NCBI GenBank assembly: GCA_027490225.1
Contig: JAIXYK010000011.1
Location: forward strand, 1-64,000
Source of the DNA: Bacteroidota bacterium
GTDB lineage: Bacteria > Bacteroidota > Bacteroidia > M30B66
DNA: 64,000 bases
Direction of reading: 5' to 3'
Shown here piece after piece: positions 14,510 through 62,920 of this stretch. The position numbers and the translations under genes are program-made. How positions within the stretch are numbered: the first letter of the stretch is position 1; each line of letters begins with the position of its first letter. The notes beneath the pieces are model-generated. The model made no database searches, was not told the origin of the DNA, and was given only the letters and a program-made list of their open reading frames with translations.

Positions 14510-14642
14510 AGAATTAAAATAAAATTACTAACTTATTTTGATTGAAAAACGAGGTATATACCTGATAGTTATTCTATTCGATAATCTATATCTTGCAGAT
14601 TCGTTGAGGACTGTTTTAGAATACCGCCTTTCTAACAAAAAA

Positions 14643-17600
14643 ATGAACTTGAATAAAAATTATCATTATTTAAATTTACATAAGAATCTGATTCTGATTG
14701 TGTTAACAATGATGGTAATTTCGGTAAAATTAATAGCACAACCTTGTACAATTAATTATCCTGCAGCGCTTACTGCTTGCAACGGACAAGCTACTCAAAT
14801 AGCACCTACGTTAAATAATGGATACACTTCCTTTTCTTGGGTATTTGCTGGAACGGGAACTTTGAATAATGCGAATGTTGCAAATCCTCAACTTACTGCT
14901 ACTGCTGCTGGAACTTTAAATTTAACTGCGAATGGCGGCGCTTGTGCCACAGCAACGGAAGTGATAAACGTTTCGATTGGCGCAGCTTTAAATATTCCAA
15001 ATATAAATGTAAGCACCACACAACCTGTATGTTCTGGAAACAATGTTGCTGCAAGCATTACAAATCCACAAGCAAATGTAACCTACACTTGGACCTTTCC
15101 CGGTGGGGCAACTGCAACTGGTACCAGCGCCACGCGGCCCGTTTCAGTAAGTGTAGGAAACGGAACGTTAACTCCCAATATTACAGTTGTTGGGACTAGT
15201 ACGGGAGGTTGCATTGTAACTGGATCAACAACTGTGAGTGTAAAACAAGCGCCAGATGTTTCTTTGAACGATTATGTGAGTTTAAGTCCGTTTGTAAATT
15301 GTGGAAGTGGAAATTTTAATTTGGCAGCTACCAATACCTCTTCAACTGCTGCTACAAATGCTACATATGCAATAAATTGGGGTGATGGCAGTGCCGTAAG
15401 TAACTTTACTACAGCAACATATGCAAGTGGAACTGATGCCACACATAGTTACACCACATCTGGTTTCTTTAATTTGGTTTGCACCATTGTAGGACAAAAT
15501 GGTTGCAGCGCCTCACAAACTTATATTGTTTTTAATGGTACAAATCCAGCTGGTTCTATTACCAGTCCTGGAGGAACTGTAGGTTTATGCGGACCTGCTA
15601 ACTTGAGTTTTCCGTTTAATGGCTGCGGTGGAAATTCCAATGGAACTACTTATGCCATTACCATAAACGATGGCTCTGATACTATTTTCTACTCACAACC
15701 TCCGCCAGTAAACTTCAATTATATTTTTGATACCACTTCTTGCGGGGCTATTGGTGCATTAACACCCAATGTGTTTTTTGTGCGATTAAGGATTTTTAAT
15801 CCATGTGGGTTCACGACTTCTACCATTGAACCAATTATTGTAAACCAGCGGCCAAGTGCCGATTTTAATGCGCCAGCGCAAGGCTGCGTAAATGTTCCAG
15901 TAAATATTGCAAATGTTACTTCACCCGGTGTGGATGTAAACAATAGTGGCGTTTGTACCTCAACGAGTTGGATTGCCTGGAATATAAGTCCCGCTGCGGG
16001 TTGGAATTTGAATTCAGGCGCTTTCGGAACCTCACCTCCTACTGCCAATCCCGCAACACAAGGAAGTGCAAATTTAAATGTAACATTTACTTCTCCCGGA
16101 ATTTATCAAATTAGGTTAATTGCCAGAAGCAACTGCGGAGCTGATACTATTATCAAAGATATCTGCATTCAAACTCCTGCCACCTCAGCATTTACTGCGT
16201 TGCCGGTAAATGGTTGTTCACCATTGGCAGTAAATACTACCAATAACTCAACAGGTAACGCCAATTGTGGTGTATTGAATTATTTATGGTCTGTTTCTCC
16301 ACTTACAGGCTGGACCTACACTAACAATACAACTGCTACATCGGCTCAGCCCCGATTCTCATTTACAGCCGCAGGAACTTATACCATTACTCTGACCACC
16401 AGCAATGGTTGCGGGCCAGTAACCTCAACCCAACAAGTTACGGTAGTAGCACCGCCAACAGTTGCGATAGACCCTATTTCGGCGGGCTGCGCGCCAACAT
16501 CTATAGATCCTTCTGCTGTAATTACCAACGGAGGAGGAACTATTTCGGCCACCAACTGGACGTTTACCGGAGCCACGCCAGCAAGTTCGAATGTTGCTGA
16601 CCCAACACCAATTAATTACGCAACTGGAGGAAATTATACTGTTTCGGTAAGTGTTACTAATCAATGTGGAACAGCAACAGATTCAGAAAATTTTACGGTT
16701 GCAAGTCCACCAGCTCCGCCAGTAATTGTTTCTAACTCTCCATTATGTGTGGGGCAAACGTTGAATTTATCGGTTACGCCAGTTACGGGTCTCAATTACA
16801 CCTGGTCTGGTCCTGCAGGATTTTCAGCTGTAGGAACTTCAACTTCATTGCCCAACATACAAAGCAGCAATGCCGGAACGTACACAGTAACTGCATCAGC
16901 TGGCACATGCAGCAATACAAATACAACAGCAGTGGTGGTAAATACTCCGCCAGTTATCAATATTTCGCCATTGAATCCAGATTTTTGTCCGGGTCAAGAA
17001 ACTGTAACAATTACAGTATCAGGAGCAGATAACTATACTTGGACTCCATCAACAGGACTAAATGTAACCAATACTGCCAGTGTAATTGCATCTATTCTTA
17101 ACACACAAACTTATACTGTTACTGGATTACAGAATGGAAATATTTGTCCAGGAACTGCAAGTATAACTTTAACTGCCAATACAATTCCCACAATTTCTAT
17201 AACGCCTCCGGGAATTATTTGTAACCAGCCAGTTGCAGTGCAGCTTACGGCAACTCCTGTAAATGGAACTTGGTCAGGACCTGCAGGTTTATTGGCAAAC
17301 GGACAATTTACACCTGCAACTATTGGGAATTTTACAGCTTATTATTCATACACAGCGCCAGTTACGGGTTGTACAGCAATTGATTCGGTAGTTTTGAATG
17401 TTCAAAATCCAACTGTTGCAGTTGCAGGCAATGACACTACAATTTGCCAGAACTCACCAACACTGCAATTACTGGGCAGCCCAGTTGGAGGAACATGGTC
17501 GGGCTCAGGTCAATTAAGCGGAAATCAATTCAATACTTCACAAAGTGGAATATTCAGTTTAACATATAGCGCTGGCAGTGGTTCTTGCGCTGTGAATGAT

Positions 17601-20600
17601 GTTAGAGTTATTAATGTAACACCTCAGCCTACTGTGAATGTTACAGGAAACCCTTCAAACATTTGCGCTATACAAGATACCAGTATACTTACTGCAACAG
17701 GAGCGAACACTTATGTTTGGACGCCATCAGCAACATTAAATAACGCAAGCGGAAATATAGTTAGGGCATTCCCAACCACCACAACAGTTTACACAGTAAC
17801 AGGAACCAGCAACAGTTGCAGCAGCAGCAATCAAGTTACGGTAACGGTGAATGCACTGCCAGTAGTTACTGCGAACGATACAAGTTTTTGTAACACCACA
17901 GCAGTGCAGCAATTAGTTGGAAATCCTGCAGGAGGAACATGGTCAGGAACGAATGTTACTTCAACAGGACTTTTCACGCCAAGTGCAAATGCAATATTAA
18001 CTTATACTTATACAGATGCAAATGGCTGCATTGGAAGCGACCAAGTGAATGTTACAGTTACAAGTCCCACGAGCATAAACGCTGGTAATGATACTAGTAT
18101 TTGCATAAACGCCATCAATGTGCAGCTCAATGGAATTCCAGCTAATGGGCAATGGTCGGGAAATAGTCAAGTGTCTACTGCAGGAATATTTAATCCAACA
18201 ACTGTAGGACCTGTAACGCTTACCTATACCGTTGGCACTGGAAGTTGCGCAGCTCAAGCCCTGCGAATTATTACTGTAATAGATTTACCAGCAGTAAACG
18301 CTGCACCCACTTTACAATTTTGTGAAGAAAATACAATCGTAAATTTAGTTGGGCCAACACCTATTGGTGGCGTTTGGAGCGGAACTGGCGTTAATGCTGC
18401 AAACAGTAGTTTAGATGTTAGTTTATTGCCTATCGGAATTACACCATTAAACTATACTTATACAGATGCGCTTACCGGCTGCAGCAACAATGTGGCTCAG
18501 AATGTGAATGTGAATGCTTCACCAATTGCAGATGCAGGAGTAAACCAGCAAGTTTGTTTAAATGGCATTTCGGTGCAATTAACTGGTATTCCTGCAAATG
18601 GAACTTGGTCGGGAACGGGAGTTTCTGCAACAGGCAATTTTACTCCTTCTGTAATTGGAATTGTAAACTTAACATATTCGTTAACAGATGCCAACGGTTG
18701 TATCGGAAATGATGTAGTGCAAGTTGATGTAATTACTCCACAAAATACAGTTGTAGGAAACGATACCAGCATTTGTTTAGATGGAAATGCAGTGCAATTT
18801 AGTGGTTCGCCCATTAATGGAACTTGGTCAGGTTTTGGAGGTATTTCAAGTACCGGATTAATAAATCCAATAACCGCAGGACAAGGTTTTATCTTTTATC
18901 AAACTGGCAGCGGCACTTGCTTAACAAAAGATTCTTTATTGCTTACCATTAATGCACTACCAATTGTAAATGCTGGAAATAACTTAGCTGTTTGTTTAGC
19001 AGCCAATGCATTTCCCCTTTCAGGCTTTACGCCAGCCGGCGGCAACTGGACAGGAACTGGTTTAAGCGGAAATACATTCACGCCAAGCATTGCAGGAATA
19101 GGCAATACAACACTTACTTATTCATTTACCAACCCAACAACAGGTTGTAACAACAGCGATTCAATTTTGGTAGATGTACAAGCCATGCCCATTGCAGCTT
19201 TTACCTTGCCAGATACAGTTTGTTCAAGCGAAGCAACCATTCCAACTACAAATCCAATCATTTCTGAAACTTACCAATGGAAAATTAATGACATTAACTT
19301 TTCTACCTTACCAACACCCATTTTCAACTTTGCAACTACTGGCGATTTTACAGTAAAACTAATAGTTTCAACTCCTATTGGTTGTAAAGATTCTATTAGT
19401 CAATTAGTTACTGTAGTTGGCGCTCCCGTAGCAAATTTTTCAACCGATGTAAATCAAGGTTGTGGTCCATTGGCAGTTACTATTAATAATCAATCATCAG
19501 GATTTAATGTTGCTTATTCTTGGTTAAATCCTTCACAATTTTCCACATCAGCACTACCTCCACCCATTATTCTTCCTGCACCAATTTTAAACGATACCAC
19601 TTATCAAATTATTCTGGAACTAAGCAGCGCATGTGGCTTAAAGCGAGACACTGCTGATATTCTTGTATTGGCATCGCCAGTTGCAGAATTTGGCACCGAT
19701 TATTCTGAAGGTTGTTCGCCCTATTTTCCAATTTTCCAAAACATCAGTTATGGAAACCCTCAAAATTACCAATGGGATTTTGGTAATGGAAACACATCTA
19801 CAACTAGCTTACCCGTAAATATTGGTTTTGTAACAGGAGCTGCCGATACCACATTTTTTATCCGATTAATAGTAAGCAATACTTGTAACGCAGATACGTT
19901 CGTCAATTTTGTAAATGTCCTGCCTAACACCATCAATCCATTTTTTAACACTTTCCCTGCAATTGGTTGTGCGCCATTAACCGTAAACCTCACCAACGTA
20001 ACAGCCAGTGCCACCAATTACTTTTGGGATTTTGGCAATGGCTCAGGCACTAACACCGAAGATGCCAGCGTAACTTATACAGATGCAGGAAATTATACCG
20101 TAAGACTCATTGCCATCAACTCCTGCACTGCCGATACATTCTACAGCAATGTTTTAGTAAATGGTCCGCCCGATTTAGATTTCAGCCTTTCAGAAAACAG
20201 CATTTGTACAGGGCAATCCGTAACTGCCATTAACAATTCAACCGGCGCAAGTGTTTATTCCTGGGATTTTGGTGATGGATTTCAAACCCTTGGCCCCAAC
20301 CCTACTCACAGCTATGCTACCGATGGAAATTACAACATCCAGTTAATCGGTTTTACCAACGTTACCAACTGTCCCGATACCATTTCATTGCCCATTGCCG
20401 TTAATCCAACAGCACAAATTCAAGTTACTGCGCAGCCTGCCGAAGGTTGCATGCCATTAACTGTCAGCTTCGCCAACACAAGTTCAGATGTTAGTTTTTA
20501 TTCCTGGGATTTTGGAAATGGAAATACATCCATCGGAAGCAATCCATTAGCAATTTACCCTACAGATGGTGCTTACAATGTGAACGTAATTGGCACAAAC

Positions 20601-21662
20601 TTTAACCAGTGTGCCGATACCACTGAACTTACCATTCAGGTGTATCCAAAACCTGTAAGTGCTTTTGCAGTGAGCGATTCGGCTGTTTGTGGTGTACCAA
20701 CTGCTATCACAACTACCAACAATTCAACAGGAGCCATAGGATTTACATGGCTTTTAGGAGATGGCAGCAGCAGCAATCAAAATGCGCCCACCCTGCAATA
20801 TGCAACCGAAGGCGATTACACATTAAGCCTTATCGCTCAAAACACCTTTACCTGTTCAGATACAGCCACCAAACCAATTTCGGTTTTGAACCAGCCTACA
20901 GCAGATTTTTCACCATCACCCATTCGTGGTTGTGAGCCGCTTACTGTAAACTTAAACAACACTTCTACAGATTTTACTTCATTTGAATTCAGCTTTGGAG
21001 ACCAAACCAGCAGCACCACAAACGATGTCTCGCATATTTATAGTGAAAATGGACTTTATTCAATCACATTGATAGCAAAATATGGCGTTTGCAGCGATAC
21101 ACTTACATTAGAAAATGCAGTTACAGTTTACCCCACTCCAACCGCCAATTTTAACATTACACCAGAAATTGCATTTACCAGTTTGCCTAGCATTCAATTA
21201 GAAAATACATCTATTGGAGGAAGTAATTTCGCCACTGATTTTGGAAATGGAGATTTTTACAATTCTTTTAAAGCAGCATACCTATATTCAAATCCCGTTG
21301 CCGGCGTTTACTACATTACCTTAAAAGTTACAAATGAAAATGGTTGTGTTGATTCTATCATTAAGCCACTCATCATGAAAGATGAACTTTCGGTGTACAC
21401 TCCATCAGGATTTACGCCAAATGGTGATGGCATTAACGATTCATTTGGCCCCTATTTCGAGGGTTTAACTGATGATTTCAACTTTTGGGTATTCAATCGC
21501 TGGGGAGAAGTAATTTTTTACACCAAAAATGCTTTCCAAAAATGGGATGGGACCGTAAATGAACGGGAAGCCCAAAACGATGTGTATGTTTTCAAATACA
21601 ACATCAAGTTTAAAAATGAACAAGTAGAAAGCAGCGTAGGAAAAGTTACCTTATATCGATAG
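14643..21662 (+). CDS. Giant T9SS type B secreted protein with Ig-like and PKD repeats
   Basis: A 2339-aa adhesin-like surface protein. I choose ATG 14643 (MNLNKNYHYLN...) because it gives a signal peptide ending at I-A-Q-P; the in-frame TTG at 14538 adds 35 residues without purpose. Residues about 30-750 hold PKD-like domains (WGDGS, YLWSVSP). About 870-1500 hold eight similar modules, each with G-x-W-S/T-G and a V-x-A-G-N-D-T-S-I-C-type start. About 1560-2230 hold PKD domains with WDFGNG or WDFGDG. The last 90 residues are a gliding-motility-associated/type B sorting domain (P-S-G-F-T-P-N-G-D-G-I-N-D, then F-N-R-W-G-E-V, W-D-G, ending T-L-Y-R). It should be exported by Sec, then across the outer membrane by T9SS. 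The role in adhesion or gliding is inferred. Confidence 0.92.
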   Translation: MNLNKNYHYLNLHKNLILIVLTMMVISVKLIAQPCTINYPAALTACNGQATQIAPTLNNGYTSFSWVFAGTGTLNNANVANPQLTATAAGTLNLTANGGACATATEVINVSIGAALNIPNINVSTTQPVCSGNNVAASITNPQANVTYTWTFPGGATATGTSATRPVSVSVGNGTLTPNITVVGTSTGGCIVTGSTTVSVKQAPDVSLNDYVSLSPFVNCGSGNFNLAATNTSSTAATNATYAINWGDGSAVSNFTTATYASGTDATHSYTTSGFFNLVCTIVGQNGCSASQTYIVFNGTNPAGSITSPGGTVGLCGPANLSFPFNGCGGNSNGTTYAITINDGSDTIFYSQPPPVNFNYIFDTTSCGAIGALTPNVFFVRLRIFNPCGFTTSTIEPIIVNQRPSADFNAPAQGCVNVPVNIANVTSPGVDVNNSGVCTSTSWIAWNISPAAGWNLNSGAFGTSPPTANPATQGSANLNVTFTSPGIYQIRLIARSNCGADTIIKDICIQTPATSAFTALPVNGCSPLAVNTTNNSTGNANCGVLNYLWSVSPLTGWTYTNNTTATSAQPRFSFTAAGTYTITLTTSNGCGPVTSTQQVTVVAPPTVAIDPISAGCAPTSIDPSAVITNGGGTISATNWTFTGATPASSNVADPTPINYATGGNYTVSVSVTNQCGTATDSENFTVASPPAPPVIVSNSPLCVGQTLNLSVTPVTGLNYTWSGPAGFSAVGTSTSLPNIQSSNAGTYTVTASAGTCSNTNTTAVVVNTPPVINISPLNPDFCPGQETVTITVSGADNYTWTPSTGLNVTNTASVIASILNTQTYTVTGLQNGNICPGTASITLTANTIPTISITPPGIICNQPVAVQLTATPVNGTWSGPAGLLANGQFTPATIGNFTAYYSYTAPVTGCTAIDSVVLNVQNPTVAVAGNDTTICQNSPTLQLLGSPVGGTWSGSGQLSGNQFNTSQSGIFSLTYSAGSGSCAVNDVRVINVTPQPTVNVTGNPSNICAIQDTSILTATGANTYVWTPSATLNNASGNIVRAFPTTTTVYTVTGTSNSCSSSNQVTVTVNALPVVTANDTSFCNTTAVQQLVGNPAGGTWSGTNVTSTGLFTPSANAILTYTYTDANGCIGSDQVNVTVTSPTSINAGNDTSICINAINVQLNGIPANGQWSGNSQVSTAGIFNPTTVGPVTLTYTVGTGSCAAQALRIITVIDLPAVNAAPTLQFCEENTIVNLVGPTPIGGVWSGTGVNAANSSLDVSLLPIGITPLNYTYTDALTGCSNNVAQNVNVNASPIADAGVNQQVCLNGISVQLTGIPANGTWSGTGVSATGNFTPSVIGIVNLTYSLTDANGCIGNDVVQVDVITPQNTVVGNDTSICLDGNAVQFSGSPINGTWSGFGGISSTGLINPITAGQGFIFYQTGSGTCLTKDSLLLTINALPIVNAGNNLAVCLAANAFPLSGFTPAGGNWTGTGLSGNTFTPSIAGIGNTTLTYSFTNPTTGCNNSDSILVDVQAMPIAAFTLPDTVCSSEATIPTTNPIISETYQWKINDINFSTLPTPIFNFATTGDFTVKLIVSTPIGCKDSISQLVTVVGAPVANFSTDVNQGCGPLAVTINNQSSGFNVAYSWLNPSQFSTSALPPPIILPAPILNDTTYQIILELSSACGLKRDTADILVLASPVAEFGTDYSEGCSPYFPIFQNISYGNPQNYQWDFGNGNTSTTSLPVNIGFVTGAADTTFFIRLIVSNTCNADTFVNFVNVLPNTINPFFNTFPAIGCAPLTVNLTNVTASATNYFWDFGNGSGTNTEDASVTYTDAGNYTVRLIAINSCTADTFYSNVLVNGPPDLDFSLSENSICTGQSVTAINNSTGASVYSWDFGDGFQTLGPNPTHSYATDGNYNIQLIGFTNVTNCPDTISLPIAVNPTAQIQVTAQPAEGCMPLTVSFANTSSDVSFYSWDFGNGNTSIGSNPLAIYPTDGAYNVNVIGTNFNQCADTTELTIQVYPKPVSAFAVSDSAVCGVPTAITTTNNSTGAIGFTWLLGDGSSSNQNAPTLQYATEGDYTLSLIAQNTFTCSDTATKPISVLNQPTADFSPSPIRGCEPLTVNLNNTSTDFTSFEFSFGDQTSSTTNDVSHIYSENGLYSITLIAKYGVCSDTLTLENAVTVYPTPTANFNITPEIAFTSLPSIQLENTSIGGSNFATDFGNGDFYNSFKAAYLYSNPVAGVYYITLKVTNENGCVDSIIKPLIMKDELSVYTPSGFTPNGDGINDSFGPYFEGLTDDFNFWVFNRWGEVIFYTKNAFQKWDGTVNEREAQNDVYVFKYNIKFKNEQVESSVGKVTLYR

Positions 21663-53344: not shown

Positions 53345-53944
53345 ATGAAGAATTTAGTCATGTTATTATGCTGTTTCCAATTCAATACTTTCAATTTATT
53401 TTCACAATTAAATGCAAATAAAATTGAAAAAGATTTAGTCAAAATAAATGACACATTATATGCTTCAAAATTCGAAGTGAGTAATGGTTTATATAAAGAA
53501 TTTTTAGCTTCTGCTTGGTTAAATAGTAAAACCCCAGATACCATTTTATTGGCTCAAATAGTTGCTTCAAAATGGATAGATTTCTCTTCAAACATGAGTC
53601 CTTTTGCAAAAGAATATCATTCACATATTGCATTTAACAACTATCCTGTAGTAAATATTCATTACCAAGGAGCAATTTTATTTTGCCAATGGTTAAGCTA
53701 TTTATGTAGTATTTCAACCAACAAAAAGCATCAAACCTTCATTTTTAATTTACCAACCGAAGAAGAATGGGAGCTTGCCGCAAAAGGTAAAACCAAATCC
53801 ACTTTTTTCCCTTGGAAAGGAAAATTGCCCTATAAAACTTTAGAAAACCCCTTATGCAATTACAATGATAGCAAGGGACATGTAGGAGAATCTTCTTACA
53901 AATACAGCGATAATGCAAACGTTACAGCCATTGTAACCGCTTAA
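53345..53944 (+). CDS. SUMF1/FGE-family protein, truncated by an in-frame stop
   Basis: 199 aa ORF with signal peptide (MKNLVMLLCCFQFNTFNLFSQ). The formylglycine-generating/sulfatase-modifying family pattern is clear: E-V-S-N-G-L-Y-K-E-F, N-N-Y-P-V-V-N-I-H-Y-Q-G-A-I-L-F-C-Q-W-L-S, then L-P-T-E-E-E-W-E-L-A-A-K-G. The domain breaks off at TAA 53942-53944, which opens a run of 16 A. The missing C-terminal third continues in the same frame after the stop (next entry). The full gene would be 262 codons plus stop. Catalytic cysteines of true FGE are not evident, so it is more like the GldK/GldJ-type structural members, or an undefined one. Confidence 0.75.
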   Translation: MKNLVMLLCCFQFNTFNLFSQLNANKIEKDLVKINDTLYASKFEVSNGLYKEFLASAWLNSKTPDTILLAQIVASKWIDFSSNMSPFAKEYHSHIAFNNYPVVNIHYQGAILFCQWLSYLCSISTNKKHQTFIFNLPTEEEWELAAKGKTKSTFFPWKGKLPYKTLENPLCNYNDSKGHVGESSYKYSDNANVTAIVTA

Positions 53945-54133
53945 AAAAAAAAAAAAAATGGTCTTTACAATATAATTGGAAACGTTTCAGAAATGATTCT
54001 TGGCGCAGAAATTACCAAAGGAGGAAGCTGGCTCGACACCGCTCAAGATCTTTACATCAGCAGCAAACAGCCCTATAATAAAGTGCCGTCTGTAAAAGTT
54101 GGATTCAGGTATTTTGCAACCATTAAAAATTAG
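53945..54133 (+). pseudogene. C-terminal remainder of the SUMF1-family gene
   Basis: After TAA the same frame reads four AAA, then N-G-L-Y-N-I-I-G-N-V-S-E-M, T-K-G-G-S-W and V-G-F-R-Y-F, which are the conserved C-terminal motifs of the SUMF1 family, ending at TAG 54131-54133. No frameshift is needed, only loss of the stop. Because the stop is made of the T and the first two A of the run, slippage in the A tract cannot remove it. Nonsense mutation with poly(A) expansion, or an assembly error at the homopolymer, are the options. Confidence 0.65.
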
Positions 54134-54250
54134 GGCGGCCCCTAAAGGTCGCGTTTTCGCTACTCGCTTTTTGCCATCCATAGGTTAAAACCTGTGGCTA
54201 GTCAAAAGAGCTCAAACAGGTCGCTCAACCGCTGCCGTGGGCATTTCGTT
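54134..54250. repeat. GC-rich structured intergenic patch C
   Basis: GC-rich sequence directly after the SUMF1-family remnant. It contains the stem CCATAGGTT (54178-54186) with AACCTGTGG (54189-54197, one G-U pair), plus GGCGGCC...GGTCGCG and CGCTCAACCGCTGCCG segments. It differs in sequence from patches A and B. It resembles dispersed Bacteroidota intergenic repeats by composition and hairpin form. The rest of the gap to 54318 holds nothing I can identify. Confidence 0.4.
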
Positions 54251-54318: not shown

Positions 54319-55341
54319 TTATTTAAATCTCTTTCCTTTAGATTGCCCCACTATTCTTAAAGAAAATTCCAATCCGCCTTTACCATTGCTGGCAGTGCGC
54401 AATGAAGACGTATTGATGTCGTAACTAAATCCAAGCGTTATGTTAGAAAATTCAAACATCGTGGCCAGTACTACTGCATCTTTTGCACGAACATATGCAC
54501 CTAAATAAACTCCTCCACCATTAAATGCTCCAGTATATTTAGATTCTGGTAAAATATTATACCGAACCATTGTTCCAATTAAAATTTGTTGTGCAGGCCC
54601 TTGCCTGTAATACATAAATCCTGGATTGATGGCGAATTTAGTATCTTCAAAACTGTATATATAATTACCATGCAGTACATATTTCAAATTCAATTTATCT
54701 CCAGAAGAAACAAACGAATACAATGGTTGATTGATGTGAAATACAGAAAAGCCGAAACTACCTTTATTAAATTGATTATTAGAAGTTTTTAAATTACCCG
54801 CCGTTTTATTGTATGTCCAAACAATGCCGCTGCTGAAATCCAAGTATCCAAACTGATTGGTTGCGCTTGCTTCTCCGCTTATTTGGTTAGGGTCGTATGC
54901 TCCATTTCCATATTGACTTCCCCATTGAAACTCAGAAAAATTAATCCGAACCTGTCCAAATCCACTTTGTAATCCTAAACCTAATTTGTTGTATCTATTT
55001 ATAGGAATTTGTAAAGCCAGAGTAAAATTGCCATTGGTTGTTATTAGCTTTCCATCACCACTTTGATCGTTAAAAAAATTCAAACCTAAAGCCCAATGCG
55101 CTTTATCTTTTTTATATTTCCCAACCCGCATCATGGCCGAAAGTGCAAATGTCTTGTAAGGACTTGTTACGTTGTTCCACTGGTTTTTATAATTGAAATT
55201 TACCTCAGATGTACTTAATGCTCCTGCCATAGCTGGATTTTGTGTAAGAGGCGCCATGTAAAATTGAGAAAAGTGAATATCCTGAGCTTTCAATTCAATG
55301 AAACTCAAAACAGAAAGAAATATGTAAACCAGTTTCCTCAT
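54319..55341 (-). CDS. PorP/SprF-family type IX secretion system membrane protein
   Basis: 340 aa outer-membrane beta-barrel with signal peptide. The family opening Q-D-I-H-F-S-Q-F-Y-M-A-P-L-T-Q-N-P-A-M-A-G is exact, and the C-terminal part has L-G-A-Y-V-R-A-K-D-A-V-V and L-G-F-S-Y-D-I-N. SprF of Flavobacterium is needed for export of its adjacent type B cargo SprB, and PorP-like paralogues are encoded beside individual cargo genes. Here it is the last gene after three large secreted proteins, six bases from the type B cargo, so it is probably their dedicated partner. Confidence 0.93.
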   Translation of the reverse strand: MRKLVYIFLSVLSFIELKAQDIHFSQFYMAPLTQNPAMAGALSTSEVNFNYKNQWNNVTSPYKTFALSAMMRVGKYKKDKAHWALGLNFFNDQSGDGKLITTNGNFTLALQIPINRYNKLGLGLQSGFGQVRINFSEFQWGSQYGNGAYDPNQISGEASATNQFGYLDFSSGIVWTYNKTAGNLKTSNNQFNKGSFGFSVFHINQPLYSFVSSGDKLNLKYVLHGNYIYSFEDTKFAINPGFMYYRQGPAQQILIGTMVRYNILPESKYTGAFNGGGVYLGAYVRAKDAVVLATMFEFSNITLGFSYDINTSSLRTASNGKGGLEFSLRIVGQSKGKRFK

Positions 55342-55347
55342 TTTCTT

Positions 55348-56865
55348 TTATTTTATTAAGGTGATATTTCCTTTTCTACTAATCTTTTCCTCACTTTTTA
55401 GTACCACTTCTAAACTATACACAAAAACATTTGTATTGAGTTCTTCCCCTTTGTATAAGCCATCCCAACAATCTCTAACATCAGTAGTTCTAAACACTAC
55501 TTCACCCCAACGGTTAAAAATTTTAAAATCAAGTTCCTTCACACAATTGGTTCCGTATAACCTCAAACATTCATTTTCTGGGTCACCTTCATTTCCCGGT
55601 GCAAATGCGGTCGGAACAAATAATTCATCACAAATAATCTCTACCTTTACTTCCACACAAGCGGTATCAGTACAGCCATTCTGACTAGTTCCTACAACAC
55701 AATAAGTTGTAGTTTCTATTGGATAAGCATCAGGATTGAAACAATTTTCGCAACTTAAATTGTTTGTAGGTGACCATAAATAAGCATTTGCTCCAAACGC
55801 AGCAATTACTGCAGTATCTCCCAATTCAATGGTTGTATCATTGCTTATAATCAAATCTGGTAATGGAAAAACATTTACCAAAACCTCAGCAGTATCAGGA
55901 CAACCGCCAGCATTTACAATTACCGAATAAGTAATATTTTCTTGCGGTGTTACTTCAATAGCAGCAGTTGTATCTGCTGTGCTCCACAAATAGCTTGTTC
56001 CTCCTGAAGCTTGTAAGGTGGTTGGCTCTTGAAGACAAATTGAAGTATCGCCAGAAATCTCTGCAATGGTTTCTGGAAACTCACTTATAGCTACAACACT
56101 TTTAGTGATGCTTGTGCATCCAGTTAAAGTATCAACAGCTTCTAAATAATATACACCAATTGAATCTGGTGTAAATTGAGTTGTATCGGCTGCTAGTAAA
56201 TTTAAACCAGTAGAATCGGCATACCAATTTACCAAAACGCCATCAGGAACTGTTGCATTCAAAACAGGAAGACTTGCTCCAGCGCAAATAGAAACTGAAG
56301 GTGCAATTATTGGCGGAGACACAATAGGACAAGGACAAGCAGGCGGCAAAACCTCTAAAGTATCTGTACACCCATTAAAAAGTAATGTTAACAATGCATT
56401 TGTACCTGAAGGAATATTTGAAATTAGATAGTTATTCAACGAGACAGAATCTACAGAGCCGGCATTGCTTTGCAAAACGCCACCTGTAACAGAAACTGAT
56501 AATGAATATGATTGTAAATCGGGTGCACAAATAGGTTGATCTAACAAGATAATTGAAGGTGCAATTAAAACTATACTAATAACCTGTGGAGCACCAACAC
56601 AGCCTTCTGCACTTGTTTCAGTTACCTGCAGTTGATAAGTCCCTACAATTGAATTCCACGCCACAGAAACAGAATCATTTCCTTGTCCAGTTAAAATTTG
56701 ACCATTTCCTTGGGTACTCCATTCGAATGTACTGCCAGCCCAGCCCACAACATGATAATTACTTACTGCATTAGTAACACACAGCGTATCAGCCTGACTC
56801 CATAAAGAAGTCAGGTTGAAAATTGCCGCAGTTACGAGCAGTAAATATTTAAAATGTTTCGACAT
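55348..56865 (-). CDS. T9SS type B cargo protein (gliding-motility-associated C-terminal domain)
   Basis: 505 aa with signal peptide (ending L-W-S-Q). An N-terminal Ig-like segment is followed at about 100-270 by a module (I-C-A-P-D-L-Q-S-Y-S-L-S-V, then C-P-C-P-I-V, V-N-W-Y-A-D) homologous to the duplicated module of the upstream 607-aa protein. Two further Ig/PKD-like domains follow. The last 90 residues are a type B sorting domain (F-V-P-T-A-F-A-P-G-N, then F-N-R-W-G-E-V-V-F, W-D-G, ending N-I-T-L-I-K). Eighteen bases separate it from the upstream gene and six from porP/sprF. Confidence 0.92.
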   Translation of the reverse strand: MSKHFKYLLLVTAAIFNLTSLWSQADTLCVTNAVSNYHVVGWAGSTFEWSTQGNGQILTGQGNDSVSVAWNSIVGTYQLQVTETSAEGCVGAPQVISIVLIAPSIILLDQPICAPDLQSYSLSVSVTGGVLQSNAGSVDSVSLNNYLISNIPSGTNALLTLLFNGCTDTLEVLPPACPCPIVSPPIIAPSVSICAGASLPVLNATVPDGVLVNWYADSTGLNLLAADTTQFTPDSIGVYYLEAVDTLTGCTSITKSVVAISEFPETIAEISGDTSICLQEPTTLQASGGTSYLWSTADTTAAIEVTPQENITYSVIVNAGGCPDTAEVLVNVFPLPDLIISNDTTIELGDTAVIAAFGANAYLWSPTNNLSCENCFNPDAYPIETTTYCVVGTSQNGCTDTACVEVKVEIICDELFVPTAFAPGNEGDPENECLRLYGTNCVKELDFKIFNRWGEVVFRTTDVRDCWDGLYKGEELNTNVFVYSLEVVLKSEEKISRKGNITLIK

Positions 56866-56883
56866 TTATTTTAATCTCGTTCT

Positions 56884-58707
56884 CTAATCGTGGAAAATTG
56901 GTGAGGTTGTAGGAACAGGATTCACAGTTACAGTAACTGTAGCAGTATTCACACAACCATTTCCATCTGTACCTGATACCACATAAGCTTGTGTTGAAAC
57001 TGGACTAGCCGTAACCGGACTTCCTGTAGATGAAGACAGCCCAGTAGAAGGACTCCAAGAATATGATAAACCTCCAGTTGCCGTTAATACCACATTATTT
57101 CCTACGCATATTATTTCATCTAATCCTGCACTTATAGAAGGCAAAGGATTTTGAGTAACGATAACAGCTGTTCTTGTAGCGCTTAAGCAACCAGTAGAAA
57201 TTTCCCTTGCTATTGCATAAAAAGTTCCAGGCCCAGTTGGAGTGTAAGAAGTGGTATTGCTTGCCAATAAAGTTCCTGCCGAAGCAGCATCATACCAATC
57301 TACCGCAATACCTGCAGGAACTGTAACCGAAATAGTTGGAATTGGGCTTCCAATGCAATAAGCAGCATTTGCAACAAAAACCGGCGGTGTAATAAGTGGG
57401 CAAGCACAGTTAGGTGAAGTTACCGCTAAAGTTGCGCTACATGGCGCTGAGGTAACTGTTAAGGTAATGTTTGTTCCTGTTGAAACGTTGCTTATTGTCC
57501 AAATATTACCAGTTGTATTTACAACTGTTCCTGACGTACTTGTTACCGTTCCTGCGCTTACAGTAACCTCAACAGAGTAAGTTAATAAATCTACAGAGCA
57601 AGTTGGACCGTTGGAAATGCTTATTGTAGGAAGCGGATTTTGAGTGACTGTTACAGCCGTTCTGGTTAAACTTAAACAACCATTTACAAGATTCCTAGCC
57701 TCTGCGTAATAAGTTCCAGGTCCTGATGGCGTGTAAGAATTACTAGCACTTACCAAAAGGTTTCCTGCTGTTGCTGCATCATACCAATCAACTGCAACTC
57801 CTCCAGGAACTGTTACAGAAATTGAAGGAATTGAACTTCCCGTGCAATAAGATGCATTTGCAACAAAAACAGGTGCTGCAACCACAGGACAAGGACAATT
57901 AGGAGATAATATTGGCAGCGTCGCCGGACAAGATGCACTTGTTACAGTTGCTGTAATATTTGTACCTGTAGGAATGTTACTGATGGACCAAATATTTCCT
58001 GTGGTATTTAAAACTGTTCCTGCGGTACTCGTTACCGTTCCTGCACTAACAGTTACTGATACAGAATAAGTTAATAAATCTGGAGCACAAGCAGCAGCTG
58101 TAGAAACTGATATTGTTGGAACTGGATTTACCGTTACTGTAACATCATCTGTACTAACACAACCGTTTGCATCTGTTCCTGTAACAGTGTAAGTAATAGT
58201 AGAGGCAGGAGTTGCAGTTACACTGGCTCCAGTAACAGCAGATAAGGCCGTTGCGGGGCTCCATGCATATGTTGCAGCTCCAGTGGCGGTAAGTGTTGTT
58301 GGTGAGCCCGCACAAATTGCCACATTCGAACCTGCATTTATTGTAGGCAAAGGAACAATTTGAACGTTCAACTGCATGGGCGTTCCTGGGCAGCCCCCGT
58401 TTGTTTCTATTACTTGTAAAACATACGTTCCAGCTGGTGTTGTTCCCCAGTTTATAGAAATAGCATTACTACTGGCACCAGGGCCTTGGTTAGTAGCAAT
58501 ACTTCCTGTAAAACCTGCAGTTAGTATTGACCATGCATAAGTGGAACCAGTTGTTCCTGCTCCTGCATTTTCTGTATAATCTACCCTGTATGGTTCTGTA
58601 GAACCAAAACAGACCACATGTGGATCACTGCTGTTGGTTTGAGCTTCAACTAATGGACTCAATAAAAGCCCAAATAGCAGCAGCAAGATAAGTTTGGTTG
58701 TTTTCAT
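56884..58707 (-). CDS. Secreted Ig-like repeat protein with P-I-F-H-D tail, no known sorting domain
   Basis: 607 aa from ATG 58707 (MKTTKLILLLLFGLLLSPLVEAQ signal); 50 further in-frame codons upstream overlap the preceding gene and are rejected. Architecture: N-terminal Ig-like domain, an Ig domain (Y-A-W-S-P-A-T-A-L), two near-identical 163-residue modules, another Ig domain (Y-S-W-S-P-S-T-G-L) and the end N-P-V-P-T-T-S-P-I-F-H-D. It has neither a type A nor a type B sorting domain. The neighbouring 1243-aa protein ends in almost the same way. Comparable in position to SprC/SprD of the Flavobacterium sprCDBF operon, but homology to them is not shown. Confidence 0.8.
   Translation of the reverse strand: MKTTKLILLLLFGLLLSPLVEAQTNSSDPHVVCFGSTEPYRVDYTENAGAGTTGSTYAWSILTAGFTGSIATNQGPGASSNAISINWGTTPAGTYVLQVIETNGGCPGTPMQLNVQIVPLPTINAGSNVAICAGSPTTLTATGAATYAWSPATALSAVTGASVTATPASTITYTVTGTDANGCVSTDDVTVTVNPVPTISVSTAAACAPDLLTYSVSVTVSAGTVTSTAGTVLNTTGNIWSISNIPTGTNITATVTSASCPATLPILSPNCPCPVVAAPVFVANASYCTGSSIPSISVTVPGGVAVDWYDAATAGNLLVSASNSYTPSGPGTYYAEARNLVNGCLSLTRTAVTVTQNPLPTISISNGPTCSVDLLTYSVEVTVSAGTVTSTSGTVVNTTGNIWTISNVSTGTNITLTVTSAPCSATLAVTSPNCACPLITPPVFVANAAYCIGSPIPTISVTVPAGIAVDWYDAASAGTLLASNTTSYTPTGPGTFYAIAREISTGCLSATRTAVIVTQNPLPSISAGLDEIICVGNNVVLTATGGLSYSWSPSTGLSSSTGSPVTASPVSTQAYVVSGTDGNGCVNTATVTVTVNPVPTTSPIFHD
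57151..58129 (-). repeat. In-frame tandem duplication of 489 bp
   Basis: Two copies of a 163-codon module lie head to tail in the 607-aa protein gene; equivalent points are 57151 and 57640. Shared landmarks are D-L-L-T-Y-S-V-x-V-T-V-S-A-G-T-V-T-S-T, T-T-G-N-I-W, C-P-C-P/C-A-C-P, and V-D-W-Y-D-A-A. A more diverged third copy is in the adjacent 505-aa type B cargo. Confidence 0.85.
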
Positions 58708-58718
58708 AGTGTAATTGT

Positions 58719-61700
58719 TTAGTCGTGGTAAATAGGTGTAGTGATTGGGATTGGATTTACTGTTGAATTTAAAGTTGTGGTCGTGGCACATTGACCGCTT
58801 GTTGGTGTAAATGTATAAGTTGCACTGCTGGTGTTGTTCACTGTTAACGGTGACCAAGATCCTGTTATGCTATTGTTTGAGGTATTTACAAGTAATGGGG
58901 CTGTTTGTCCGGTGCAGAAGGGTGACAATGCTGTAAATGTTGGAACAGTTGGAGCATTCACAGTAACAGGTAATGTAACCAATGGAGATGTGCAACTTCC
59001 TAAAGATGCTGGTCCTACAATTTGCAAAGAAATATTGTAAGTTGTAGCTGATGCAAATCCAATTGTATAAGGTCCTGCGCCTGTTCCACTAATAACATTA
59101 ACACCTGCTGGCCAAGTCCAGTTATATGTTGAACCAGGACATGATGTTCCGACAAATGTAACTGTTGCGTTTTGCCCCAAACAAATAGGATTAGGACTTA
59201 CCGTAAATGTTGCAATTGGTTTTGGTCTTATTGTTACGGGAACAACTAATGCTGTACCTGTGCAAGTTCCTAAAGAAGGAGTTATCGTATAATTTACTAC
59301 TTGATCTGTACAAGTGTTATTTGGAATTGCATTGGCAATAGGACTACCTGTTCCGCTACTTCCATTTGAGCCAGTCCAATTTATACTTGCCCCAAGAGGA
59401 TTTGTTGTAAGATTAATGGTAGACGTTGATGCGGTAGGTAATGTTGGCCCAGAACAAGTTGAATAACTTGGCAATGCTGATAATACTGATGGAATTGCAT
59501 TTACAGTAATTGTCATTGTAGCTGTGGTTGCGCATACTCCAGCTGCAGGTGTAAATGTGTAAGTTGTAGTGGTGGTATTGTTTATTGCTGGTGACCAAGT
59601 TCCAGTAATGCCATTAGTAGATGTTGTTGGCAATGCCGAAAGTGTAGCACCTGAACAAATAGCAGCAACCTGATTAAATGTTGGTGTTATAGGGTTTATC
59701 GCAGTTACGCAGGTTTGTGAAAAACAATCCGCGCTTAAAGAATAAGTAACAGGATTTGGTCTTCCGAACCCAAAATTAATAGAAACACTTCCATAATTAT
59801 TTTCATTCGGACCTGCTGGTGTTAAAAATTGATTGCTCACAAAAGTTGTTAGAAATTGTCCTGGGTCATTCACCATCATGGTAAAAAAACTGATGTTTCC
59901 TGTTGGGTTTCCAAGTTCATTCATTGGAATTTTGAATTCAAAGCCTTGTGTAAAAACACCCACACCTGCATTACCTATAAATCCAAAGTTAGGTGAACCA
60001 TTTGCTGAACCAAGAAATACAGAGCTATTATTAGGTATGTCGTACAAATCAAAAAAAACATCTCCGAAAGCCTGATTAACACCTAAAATATAATCTGGAA
60101 AAAACCCTGCGTCAAAAGTTATGGAACTGTTCAGATTTTCCATAGAATAATAGGGTGCATTGCTTCTTGCTATCCAAGCTCCCAAATTATTAACCCCTCC
60201 AGCCCGACAATCAATAAATAAAAGTATTTTATTATTAGAACCATTTACCAAATTAGCAGCTATTCCTACATTTAAAAAATTACCAATATTGTTTACATAA
60301 AGTGCATCTAAATTATTACCAGGTCCAAATCCACTATTTGCTGGTCCTCCTGTGGATTTAGCAATAGGATTTCCCCATTCAGGTTCTGAAAAATTTCCTT
60401 CGAACAAAAAAGGAGGTGGCGGATAAGAAATCACACAAACTTCGTCACCAGTTACTAAAACAGGACTTGTAAAAGTATTGGTACTACTAGGGATTCCCTG
60501 TGAAGTTCCATTTATAGTAAATTCGTAAAGCGCTCCATTTCCTGCAGTAAAAGTAAGCGGAACTCCAGCGCATGGAAGTGTGGGTGTTACAGTTGGTGTT
60601 GCAGGTAAATTATTGATTACAACTGTTTGTATTACTGAAATAGCAGGACAAATACCTGAACCGGCAACTGTGTAAGTTATAGTGTAAGTCCCGGCAGTAC
60701 TGGTCGAAGGCACAATTGCACCAGTTGATGTATTAATACTTAATCCCGATGGACTTGCACTGTAAGTCCCGCCAGTAATTCCTGTAAACGTTGGCAATTG
60801 AGAAGTAGTAATATTCGTACAAAATGGTGCTCCTGCATATGAAATTGTTGTAGGAGTAAATGGTGTAAAATTTACATTTACCTGGTCAGTTGCGGTACAA
60901 CCATTTGCATCAGTAACAGTAACAGTATACACGGTGTTTGCTGTAGGACCAACTATCGGATTTGCAGAAGTTGCTCCACTTATAATACCTGTAGCAGGCA
61001 ACCAGGAATATGTATAAGAACCCGCACCACCTGTAGCAGTAGGAGAACCTCCGATTATTACTTGGCCAGAATTTGCACAATTAGAAACGTTGGCGCCTGC
61101 ATTAGCCGTTAAACTGCTATTAGGGGCGAAATTAATACATCCACTTGTGCTAGTATTGCCGCATAAATCACTTATTCCGCCTGCTGTATTTGTAATACAT
61201 AAATTGTAGGTACCAATTATAGTAATTGCCGGAGAAACATTAAATGTTAACTCCTGAGAAAATTGCGTTCCTCCTCCGGTGCATGATTCTACATTTATAG
61301 AAGTAATGGTGTAAGGCCCCCCTGGTCCTGTAATTGAGAAATCTCCTGCCTGAATGCTACTGCATAGAGTGGGCTCAGAAAACTCCATTTGAAATGTTAC
61401 TCCTACACAATCATCGCTTGATACACTTTCTACTACTGGTGCAACATTATCGAATAAAGAGGCTGTTGACGGAGATAAATCTATAAAATATCCTCCTTGA
61501 GAAGCATCAAAATTACTTACCAAAATAGCATATGAATTACCGGCAGTTACTGGAATACTCGCGTTAAATGATTCATCTACATCGGTAGCACTGTTTCCAC
61601 TGCCAAAATAAGGCGTTGCACTATAAGCGCCAGTTTGTCCAGCCCAAGTTCCAACATCAAATGAATAATTACAACTAATCTCAGCACTAGAACCATCAGA

Positions 61701-62450
61701 AATTCCATCACAACCATCATTTGTAATATCATACAAAGCCCAATCATAATCATCGTCAGACAAATTTGGGGAAATTATAAATGAAAGATTCCCACTCGAT
61801 GCTGCTGTAAAAACATACCATGAGTTATTCAATTCACCGTCTTGCAAGCAAGAACCAGCAGGTACTATGTCGCTTCCATTATTCCCAATATAGCCATTAG
61901 GCTGATAGTATTGCTCTAAACAAATAGGTATTGCCCCATTACAATCTTGTTGTGAAAAGGTAGCTGGAATTGGACATGGCTGGCAAGAAATTAATCCTGT
62001 CCACCCCGGATCTCTATTGCTTCCATCAGAAATAAATTCAAATGTTAAACATCCTGAAGAAGAAGCTACGGGAAATGATGTAGGAAAGGGGCCTCCACTA
62101 ATATCAAACATATATGTTGCCGGATTTACTATTGGCCCATCATAAACGCTCAAATAATCATATACTGTTCCAAAAATAATATCATTTACATTAAACTGAG
62201 TAAAATCAACTGTAATGCATTGCCCCGGTGTATTGCTGCAAAAAGTATAAGTAGAAGAACTACCATTGGCATAATTGCTAGTTGGTCCGCCGCTATCATA
62301 AAAGGTACCTGAACAAGTGGTTACGCTGCTGTCAATGGAGCCTGTTGGCATTGTATAAACTTGCCCTTTCAAATTAGAAACTTGAAAAACGCAAAACAAC
62401 AAATACGTTAGGTAAGTAAGGTGTTTCAAATCCCAAGTCTTTTTTTCCAA
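58719..62450 (-). CDS. Large secreted multidomain protein (CUB, Ig-like) with P-I-Y-H-D tail
   Basis: 1243 aa. The start at ATG 62450 overlaps the 164-aa gene by 25 bases and is followed by a signal-like stretch (LTYLTYLLFCVFQVSNLKGQ). In order: a CUB-like domain (about 30-145, with F-Y-D-S-G-G-P, Y-D-Y-L-S-V-Y-D-G-P and G-C-L-T-F-E-F); a domain with L-N-N-S-W-Y-V-F-T and D-Y-D-W-A-L-Y-D-I typical of Bacteroidota surface proteins; an Ig/SbsA-like domain; several PKD/Ig-like repeats; and a segment near 690-850 that reads like a cell-surface beta domain. The C-terminus is N-P-I-P-I-T-T-P-I-Y-H-D, without a known T9SS signal. Eleven bases separate it from the 607-aa gene. Confidence 0.82.
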   Translation of the reverse strand: MEKKTWDLKHLTYLTYLLFCVFQVSNLKGQVYTMPTGSIDSSVTTCSGTFYDSGGPTSNYANGSSSTYTFCSNTPGQCITVDFTQFNVNDIIFGTVYDYLSVYDGPIVNPATYMFDISGGPFPTSFPVASSSGCLTFEFISDGSNRDPGWTGLISCQPCPIPATFSQQDCNGAIPICLEQYYQPNGYIGNNGSDIVPAGSCLQDGELNNSWYVFTAASSGNLSFIISPNLSDDDYDWALYDITNDGCDGISDGSSAEISCNYSFDVGTWAGQTGAYSATPYFGSGNSATDVDESFNASIPVTAGNSYAILVSNFDASQGGYFIDLSPSTASLFDNVAPVVESVSSDDCVGVTFQMEFSEPTLCSSIQAGDFSITGPGGPYTITSINVESCTGGGTQFSQELTFNVSPAITIIGTYNLCITNTAGGISDLCGNTSTSGCINFAPNSSLTANAGANVSNCANSGQVIIGGSPTATGGAGSYTYSWLPATGIISGATSANPIVGPTANTVYTVTVTDANGCTATDQVNVNFTPFTPTTISYAGAPFCTNITTSQLPTFTGITGGTYSASPSGLSINTSTGAIVPSTSTAGTYTITYTVAGSGICPAISVIQTVVINNLPATPTVTPTLPCAGVPLTFTAGNGALYEFTINGTSQGIPSSTNTFTSPVLVTGDEVCVISYPPPPFLFEGNFSEPEWGNPIAKSTGGPANSGFGPGNNLDALYVNNIGNFLNVGIAANLVNGSNNKILLFIDCRAGGVNNLGAWIARSNAPYYSMENLNSSITFDAGFFPDYILGVNQAFGDVFFDLYDIPNNSSVFLGSANGSPNFGFIGNAGVGVFTQGFEFKIPMNELGNPTGNISFFTMMVNDPGQFLTTFVSNQFLTPAGPNENNYGSVSINFGFGRPNPVTYSLSADCFSQTCVTAINPITPTFNQVAAICSGATLSALPTTSTNGITGTWSPAINNTTTTTYTFTPAAGVCATTATMTITVNAIPSVLSALPSYSTCSGPTLPTASTSTINLTTNPLGASINWTGSNGSSGTGSPIANAIPNNTCTDQVVNYTITPSLGTCTGTALVVPVTIRPKPIATFTVSPNPICLGQNATVTFVGTSCPGSTYNWTWPAGVNVISGTGAGPYTIGFASATTYNISLQIVGPASLGSCTSPLVTLPVTVNAPTVPTFTALSPFCTGQTAPLLVNTSNNSITGSWSPLTVNNTSSATYTFTPTSGQCATTTTLNSTVNPIPITTPIYHD

Positions 62451-62920
62451 TTCAACAATTCAACTTTATTAAGCAAATAAACTTTCTGAGACTTTGGCTC
62501 ATTCTTGGTTTTCTTTTTTAAGATTTGTGCCTCTTCATTTTTTTGAATCTTTTTCTTTTGAAAAATCAAAATAGGCTCATGTGCATTGCTCAATTCTTTA
62601 AATATACTTTTTTGATCATTGCTGAATTTTTGAAAATCTACATAACTTACATTTGAATAATCTGCAGGAGATTCAACAATTGATTGATATAAAGTATGAT
62701 TGGCTTCAATCCATTTCAAAATGCTTTCACCGTACTTTAGCGAATCGTTGGCTGAACTATTCCTTTTAAGTCTGGGAAAACCAGCTACATCTACTCCAAC
62801 AATCCAAAATTTAGGAAAATCTGTGTTTCGATTGTATTTTCTAAAAATCGTGTCTTGCGCATTTAGATTATCATTACAAAAAAAAACAAAAAGCAATAAA
62901 ATTGGTAGTTTTATCTTCAT
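62426..62920 (-). CDS. Secreted hypothetical protein, first gene of the T9SS cluster
   Basis: 164 aa with signal peptide (MKIKLPILLLFVFFCNDNLNAQ). The mature part is not recognised; it contains F-W-I-V-G-V-D-V-A-G-F-P-R-L near residue 40 and a lysine-rich C-terminal third (KKKIQKNEEAQILKKKTK). Its end overlaps the 1243-aa gene, so the two are translationally coupled. As the lead gene of a cluster of T9SS cargo and a PorP/SprF protein, it could be a periplasmic chaperone or accessory factor; that is context only. The 198-bp gap to purF holds no further gene that I can see. Confidence 0.65.
   Translation of the reverse strand: MKIKLPILLLFVFFCNDNLNAQDTIFRKYNRNTDFPKFWIVGVDVAGFPRLKRNSSANDSLKYGESILKWIEANHTLYQSIVESPADYSNVSYVDFQKFSNDQKSIFKELSNAHEPILIFQKKKIQKNEEAQILKKKTKNEPKSQKVYLLNKVELLNWKKRLGI

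Follow-up and report, generated by a model that had tools for sequence, protein, structure and literature searches.

A five-gene operon in a Bacteroidota genome (GenBank assembly GCA_027490225.1) raises the question of how secreted proteins that carry no T9SS sorting domain could reach the cell surface and remain there, when they are encoded directly beside a cargo protein that does carry one. The operon lies on the minus strand between positions 54319 and 62920 of the window, by which we mean the whole stretch of 64,000 nucleotides that was analysed (contig JAIXYK010000011.1, positions 1 to 64,000). An earlier note on this DNA had described five same-strand genes here, including a 505-aa type B cargo and PorP/SprF, and all five are present.

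The five-gene operon

The first gene (62426-62920, minus strand, as are all those that follow) encodes a small secreted protein of 164 aa that has a signal peptide and is without a confident Pfam or NCBIfam match. The second (58719-62450, TTG start) encodes a 1243-aa protein of the tip type, consisting of a signal peptide, a CUB domain (PF00431), Ig/PKD-like repeats and the C-terminal tail TTPIYHD (58722-58742), so that the protein ends in ...NSTVNPIPITTPIYHD*. The 607-aa protein of the third gene (56884-58707) is of the middle type. Its signal peptide is followed immediately by a PKD-like domain that we call HEAD (58345-58641), then by four Ig_7 stretches and the tail TSPIFHD (56887-56907), with the C-terminus ...VTVNPVPTTSPIFHD*. 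There is no CTD in either protein, and no HEAD in the 1243-aa protein.

The fourth gene (55348-56865) encodes a 505-aa protein of the base type, which has a signal peptide, HEAD (56557-56799), Ig_7 and a T9SS type B CTD (55354-55617, residues 417-504) that scores above the cut-offs of both TIGR04131 (39.5 bits, cut-off 35) and PF13585 (44.1, cut-off 27). It shares a reading frame with the 607-aa gene, with TAG and TAA between them, and is directly upstream of the last gene (54319-55341), whose 340-aa product is an outer-membrane carrier/anchor of the PorP/SprF family (TIGR03519, 185.2 bits; PF11751, 141.8 bits; both over cut-off) and one of eight PorP/SprF copies in the genome.

The 1243-aa and 607-aa proteins were previously noted to carry signal peptides but to lack sorting domains of type A or B, and searches of Pfam and NCBIfam agree: neither type A (PF18962/TIGR04183) nor type B (PF13585/TIGR04131) was matched, nor any other CTD family in these libraries, which may hold no type C (ChiA) model. 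Pfam reported no SprB repeat (PF13573) in the 1243-, 607- and 505-aa proteins, and no fimbrillin match in the operon.

A second type B cargo of 2374 aa is present in the window (14538-21662). It is absent from the HEAD matches of the genome and has no same-strand gene ahead of it, making it a small negative case. On the plus strand, at 53345-54140, the window also contains an interrupted GldK/FGE-like secreted protein: a 199-aa ORF (GldK, 79.7 bits; FGE-sulfatase) ends just ahead of a run of A, and the remaining domain continues beyond it in the same frame. The interruption may be a sequencing error, a pseudogene or a variable tract.

A C-terminal tail common to two proteins

The common ending was first described as beginning with N-P-x-P. 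The last ~7 residues are indeed conserved, but N-P-x-P is the usual end of Ig repeats and is missing from some tails, such as those of loci L076 (GGSIITTPIYHD) and L077 (GNVISTTPIYHD). The 3.77-Mb genome contains two matches to a DNA pattern for P-I-[YF]-H-[DN]-stop, one at each tail of the operon, and none to its reversed control.

The last domains of the two proteins are related and of Ig type, and the 100 residues ahead of their tails align with a z of 2.9 relative to shuffles, so the tail might have no function of its own, being simply where such a domain ends or a remnant of a recent duplication. We regard this as very improbable. The earlier note had pointed out that such an ending should be equally common inside proteins, and this was not found: T[ST]xIxH[DNY] is at the C-terminus of 22 of the 1057 ORFs read and occurs internally once in 468,644 residues, and PI[YF]H[DN] has no internal occurrence in those same loci. 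Moreover, in 6 of 15 clusters (L076, L118, L120, L122, L251 and L257; z below 1.3) the 100 residues ahead of two tails do not score above shuffles, yet the tails still agree. Agreement of the tails where the sequences ahead of them do not align argues against a natural domain end, and the tail is a true C-terminal tag common to two different proteins. Its endings differ among clusters (IxHD, IxHN, IxHY, IIAN, IQAY), which makes one fixed contact unlikely. An isopeptide (SpyTag-like) bond was also considered, and was dropped because the last residue of the tail varies among D, N and Y.

Occurrence in Bacteroidia

Tails are present in at least six further families of Bacteroidia. Within the family of the host, the raw DNA pattern detects the tail in 5 of 10 genomes. 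Raw counts of this pattern in 395 genomes of the class are at the level of controls, but when true stops in these genomes were read in frame, 10 ORFs longer than 100 aa emerged, of which 9 are Ig-type secreted proteins in similar clusters. Reading frames, rather than raw DNA counts, thus separate signal from noise. A second case of tails on two adjacent genes is found in family f27 (L064; PLISPIYHD and PVTSPIYHD), and a tail TTSPIFHN is found in family f4 (L047). A strict 24-base tail pattern, searched in all genome contigs, detected three loci only, all of which are HEAD clusters and two of which are on already known contigs. Order-level searches around families f27 and f58 gave no new cluster with an N-terminal HEAD.

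The content of tip proteins varies. The CUB domain in the window has as its counterparts a lamin-tail domain (LTD) with TIG in L130 (6588-8369) and a SprB repeat in L112 (4923-6476), and all of these proteins end in tails.

The HEAD domain

HEAD is an N-terminal PKD-like domain that follows the signal peptide in the 607-aa and 505-aa proteins and in their counterparts. Its signature is an invariant Cys near the start, a Trp, a Gly and a second Cys. Our profile matches the 607-aa and 505-aa proteins with E-values of 4.1e-43 and 2.8e-23, respectively, each of these sequences being itself in the seed alignment; other matches are strong in families f1, f4 and f27, and weaker in f10, f38, f56 and f58. 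In Pfam, the two HEADs of the operon fall below the cut-off of 25 bits (17.3 for PKD_6, PF19408, in the 505-aa protein; 20.0 for PKD_5, E 0.00065, in the 607-aa protein), and HEADs of relatives exceed the PKD cut-off of 25 bits (L113, 44.9; L121, 35.3; L114, 34.7 and 34.0). Genome-wide, exactly two HEADs and two tails were detected in the host, all of them within the operon.

Clusters containing HEAD follow a pattern of a tip with a tail only, a middle with HEAD and tail, and a base with HEAD and a T9SS domain, which is type B or, once, type A. Loci of families f10, f38, f56 and f58 were selected on HEAD alone, and their small HEAD proteins (~205 aa) nearly all end in tails (PATLAIYHN, PVTSQIYH, PTTTGIFHN, VTPSIQHN, TSAIRHY, NTSPISHY); the next gene typically encodes HEAD and a type B CTD. 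In f38, the tail-only protein (PVTSSIYHY, PVTGSIYHD, PITGAIQH) comes after rather than first.

The tail and HEAD occur together

Association was counted with a broad tail pattern ([ILV]xx[DNY] or [ILV]xH), which was partly shaped on the same sequences that were later counted, and with a strict one ([ILV]xH[DNY]?). Of the 33 complete HEAD proteins that lack a type B CTD, 32 have the broad tail and 26 the strict tail. For the upstream neighbours of HEAD genes, the broad tail is present in 27 of 27 cases and the strict tail in 13, although one of the 27 is an unrelated-looking 552-aa gene (L123) whose ending is probably due to chance. The corresponding numbers for other ORFs of the same loci are 32 and 11 of 372, a background that is overestimated because these ORFs hold further cluster tails. 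Fisher tests of the association give p-values of 4e-26 and 4e-11, which are indicative only, since related genomes were counted as separate and are not independent. The numbers of tails and HEADs are at times unequal: L076 and L077 have three tails to two HEADs, and in f10 the tail-only genes can be more numerous than the HEADs.

The sole exception among the 33 HEAD proteins (L124, 4606-6674) carries a type A CTD (TIGR04183, 46.8 bits) and is flanked by two tail proteins, ending in ATPIIQHRN and GTPAIQHKD. With a type A base between two tail proteins, the constant partner is HEAD and not the type of CTD.

The tail was proposed in the earlier note to be a third kind of T9SS sorting tag linked to PorP/SprF, in which case PorP/SprF or the translocon would read it and the 1243-aa and 607-aa proteins would be independent cargo. 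Tail proteins do have a signal peptide, lack a CTD and need to cross the outer membrane, and in the window they adjoin a type B gene and PorP. However, 60 loci chosen for PorP/SprF, from more than 30 families, contain 46 type B CTDs and 63 PorP proteins but no tail and no HEAD among 442 complete ORFs, which ties the tail to HEAD and not to PorP or to type B export in general; a sorting signal was dropped as the first choice on this ground. Strict tails on long ORFs are almost confined to HEAD clusters, several clusters of f10 and f38 have no adjoining PorP, and the type A base of L124 also speaks against a signal of this kind. Furthermore, known CTDs are folded domains of ~70-100 residues rather than 7-residue tails (PMC10202324, PMC10994853), and since a type C CTD has already been described (PMC10202324), the tail would hardly be the third. 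We consider a sorting signal unlikely.

Co-occurrence of genes within one operon can have many causes, and the tail might instead bind another partner from the cluster, such as a periplasmic chaperone or the small protein of the first gene, with HEAD a bystander. Clusters of f1 and f27 do begin with a small secreted protein (123-190 aa), which may possibly be a chaperone or anchor, and HEAD is itself only a candidate for the partner of the tail. Such a protein was not seen in clusters of f10, f38, f56 and f58, where tail and HEAD persist, and we judge binding to another partner to be quite unlikely. The sequence of the small protein varies among the positions where it comes first (62426-62920 in the window; L077, 3482-3853; L064, 2014-2541; L128, 3798-4361).

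Nine clusters of f10 (L115, L125, L126, L127, L252, L253, L255, L256 and L259) have tail dialects of their own that are common to neighbouring genes, namely PIIAN/INSN, ITPTN, IQAY/IQPY and INTY. These sequences suggest that tail and HEAD may form cluster-specific pairs.

A proposed surface assembly

We think it probable that the tail serves as a short peptide for docking, with HEAD as its partner, and that tip, middle and base form an assembly on the cell surface. Docking on the type B protein was one of the earlier proposals for the tail, and it is the one that fits best; the sequences point to HEAD as the feature that the tail follows, once on a type A base. In the operon, the 1243-aa tip would dock through its tail on the HEAD of the 607-aa middle, and the tail of the middle would dock on the 505-aa base, which would pass through the T9SS and be held by its own PorP/SprF. 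Docking in this order would allow the two CTD-less proteins to arrive at the surface and remain there by means of one CTD-bearing protein. They may be exported together with the base or, alternatively, bind it outside.

A single-chain AlphaFold2 model was made of a read-through fusion that contains the last Ig domain of the 607-aa protein, its tail, the linker, and the signal peptide and HEAD of the 505-aa protein; its alignment rows came only from the window or from loci that a DNA search had identified. The model has a mean pLDDT of 86.8 and a pTM of 0.70; pLDDT is mostly above 90 in Ig and HEAD, ~80 in the tail block, and 57-67 in the linker and signal peptide. The tail is predicted to be ordered, with a two-residue strand at F-H, and the Ig domain is predicted to stack on HEAD. 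A pTM of 0.70 despite a floppy joint of 30 residues suggests that the placement of Ig and HEAD in the model is defined. In a control without HEAD the Ig fold is lost entirely (pLDDT 53.6), and this collapse of the whole means that the control does not isolate HEAD as what orders the tail.

In most HEAD proteins, the mature protein starts 5-11 residues ahead of the first conserved Cys (~5 in the 505-aa protein), and the PKD_6 matches of HEADs in base proteins begin only at position 11-13 of 82. These features fit a HEAD whose first strand is missing and would be supplied by the tail. A more specific possibility, which we regard as tentative, is that the joint is a split Ig domain in which each tail supplies the missing strand A of the next HEAD, and that a chain of CTD-less proteins is pre-assembled on one CTD-bearing base and exported in this form by the T9SS.

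If the tail does tie CTD-less proteins to a cargo that bears HEAD, this would explain how such proteins, when encoded beside type B genes, could arrive at the surface, multi-part adhesins could be predicted from gene order, and tail and HEAD would make a small peptide-domain pair, perhaps usable as a tag. The tail and HEAD could also serve as an annotation filter for many "hypothetical" secreted proteins of Bacteroidia.

Comparison with known systems

Searches of open-access full text (subscription papers and preprints being outside their scope) found no description of HEAD, the tail or their link, and nothing matching CTD-less piggyback T9SS cargo or donor-strand joining in the T9SS. That type B proteins are held by PorP-like proteins is published, and the 505-aa type B protein beside its own PorP/SprF resembles the cognate pairs SprB-SprF and PG1035-PorP (PMC9143113, PMC12635249). 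In contrast to these pairs, the 505-aa cargo adds an N-terminal HEAD and the operon adds CTD-less tail proteins, an arrangement for which no description was found. Sorting domains of types A, B and C (PF18962, PF13585 and the ChiA type; PMC10202324, PMC10994853) share with the tail a C-terminal position on secreted proteins of Bacteroidota. The tail, however, is a peptide of ~7 residues and not a folded domain, and its link is with HEAD instead of the secretion machinery; in the published T9SS models considered here, cargo is recognised through a folded C-terminal domain, and the tail would differ from them in this respect.

The layout had also been likened to the sprC-sprD-sprB-sprF gliding operon of Flavobacterium, where genes for CTD-less secreted proteins likewise precede those for a type B protein and SprF, and whose SprC reportedly travels along the gliding track (PMC12635249). 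Beyond this, the likeness found no support: SprB repeats are absent from the 505-aa protein in Pfam, and neither tail nor HEAD was found in the stretches read of 16 loci with giant SprB-repeat ORFs.

Subunits of chaperone-usher and type V (FimA/Mfa1) pili are joined by donor strands, the Ig-like domain of each being completed by a terminal peptide from its neighbour. Strand donation from tail to HEAD would be similar in idea, by analogy with these pili, although the tail is shorter, the proteins are associated with the T9SS, and none has a fimbrillin match in Pfam. The best Foldseek match of the Ig-HEAD model (TMq 0.58, identity ~20%) is to the tandem Ig-like domains of GhpA, a grappling-hook surface protein of the Bacteroidota genus Aureispira (PDB 9flu and others). 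The domains of GhpA are joined in one chain, whereas in the assembly proposed here the joint would lie between chains.
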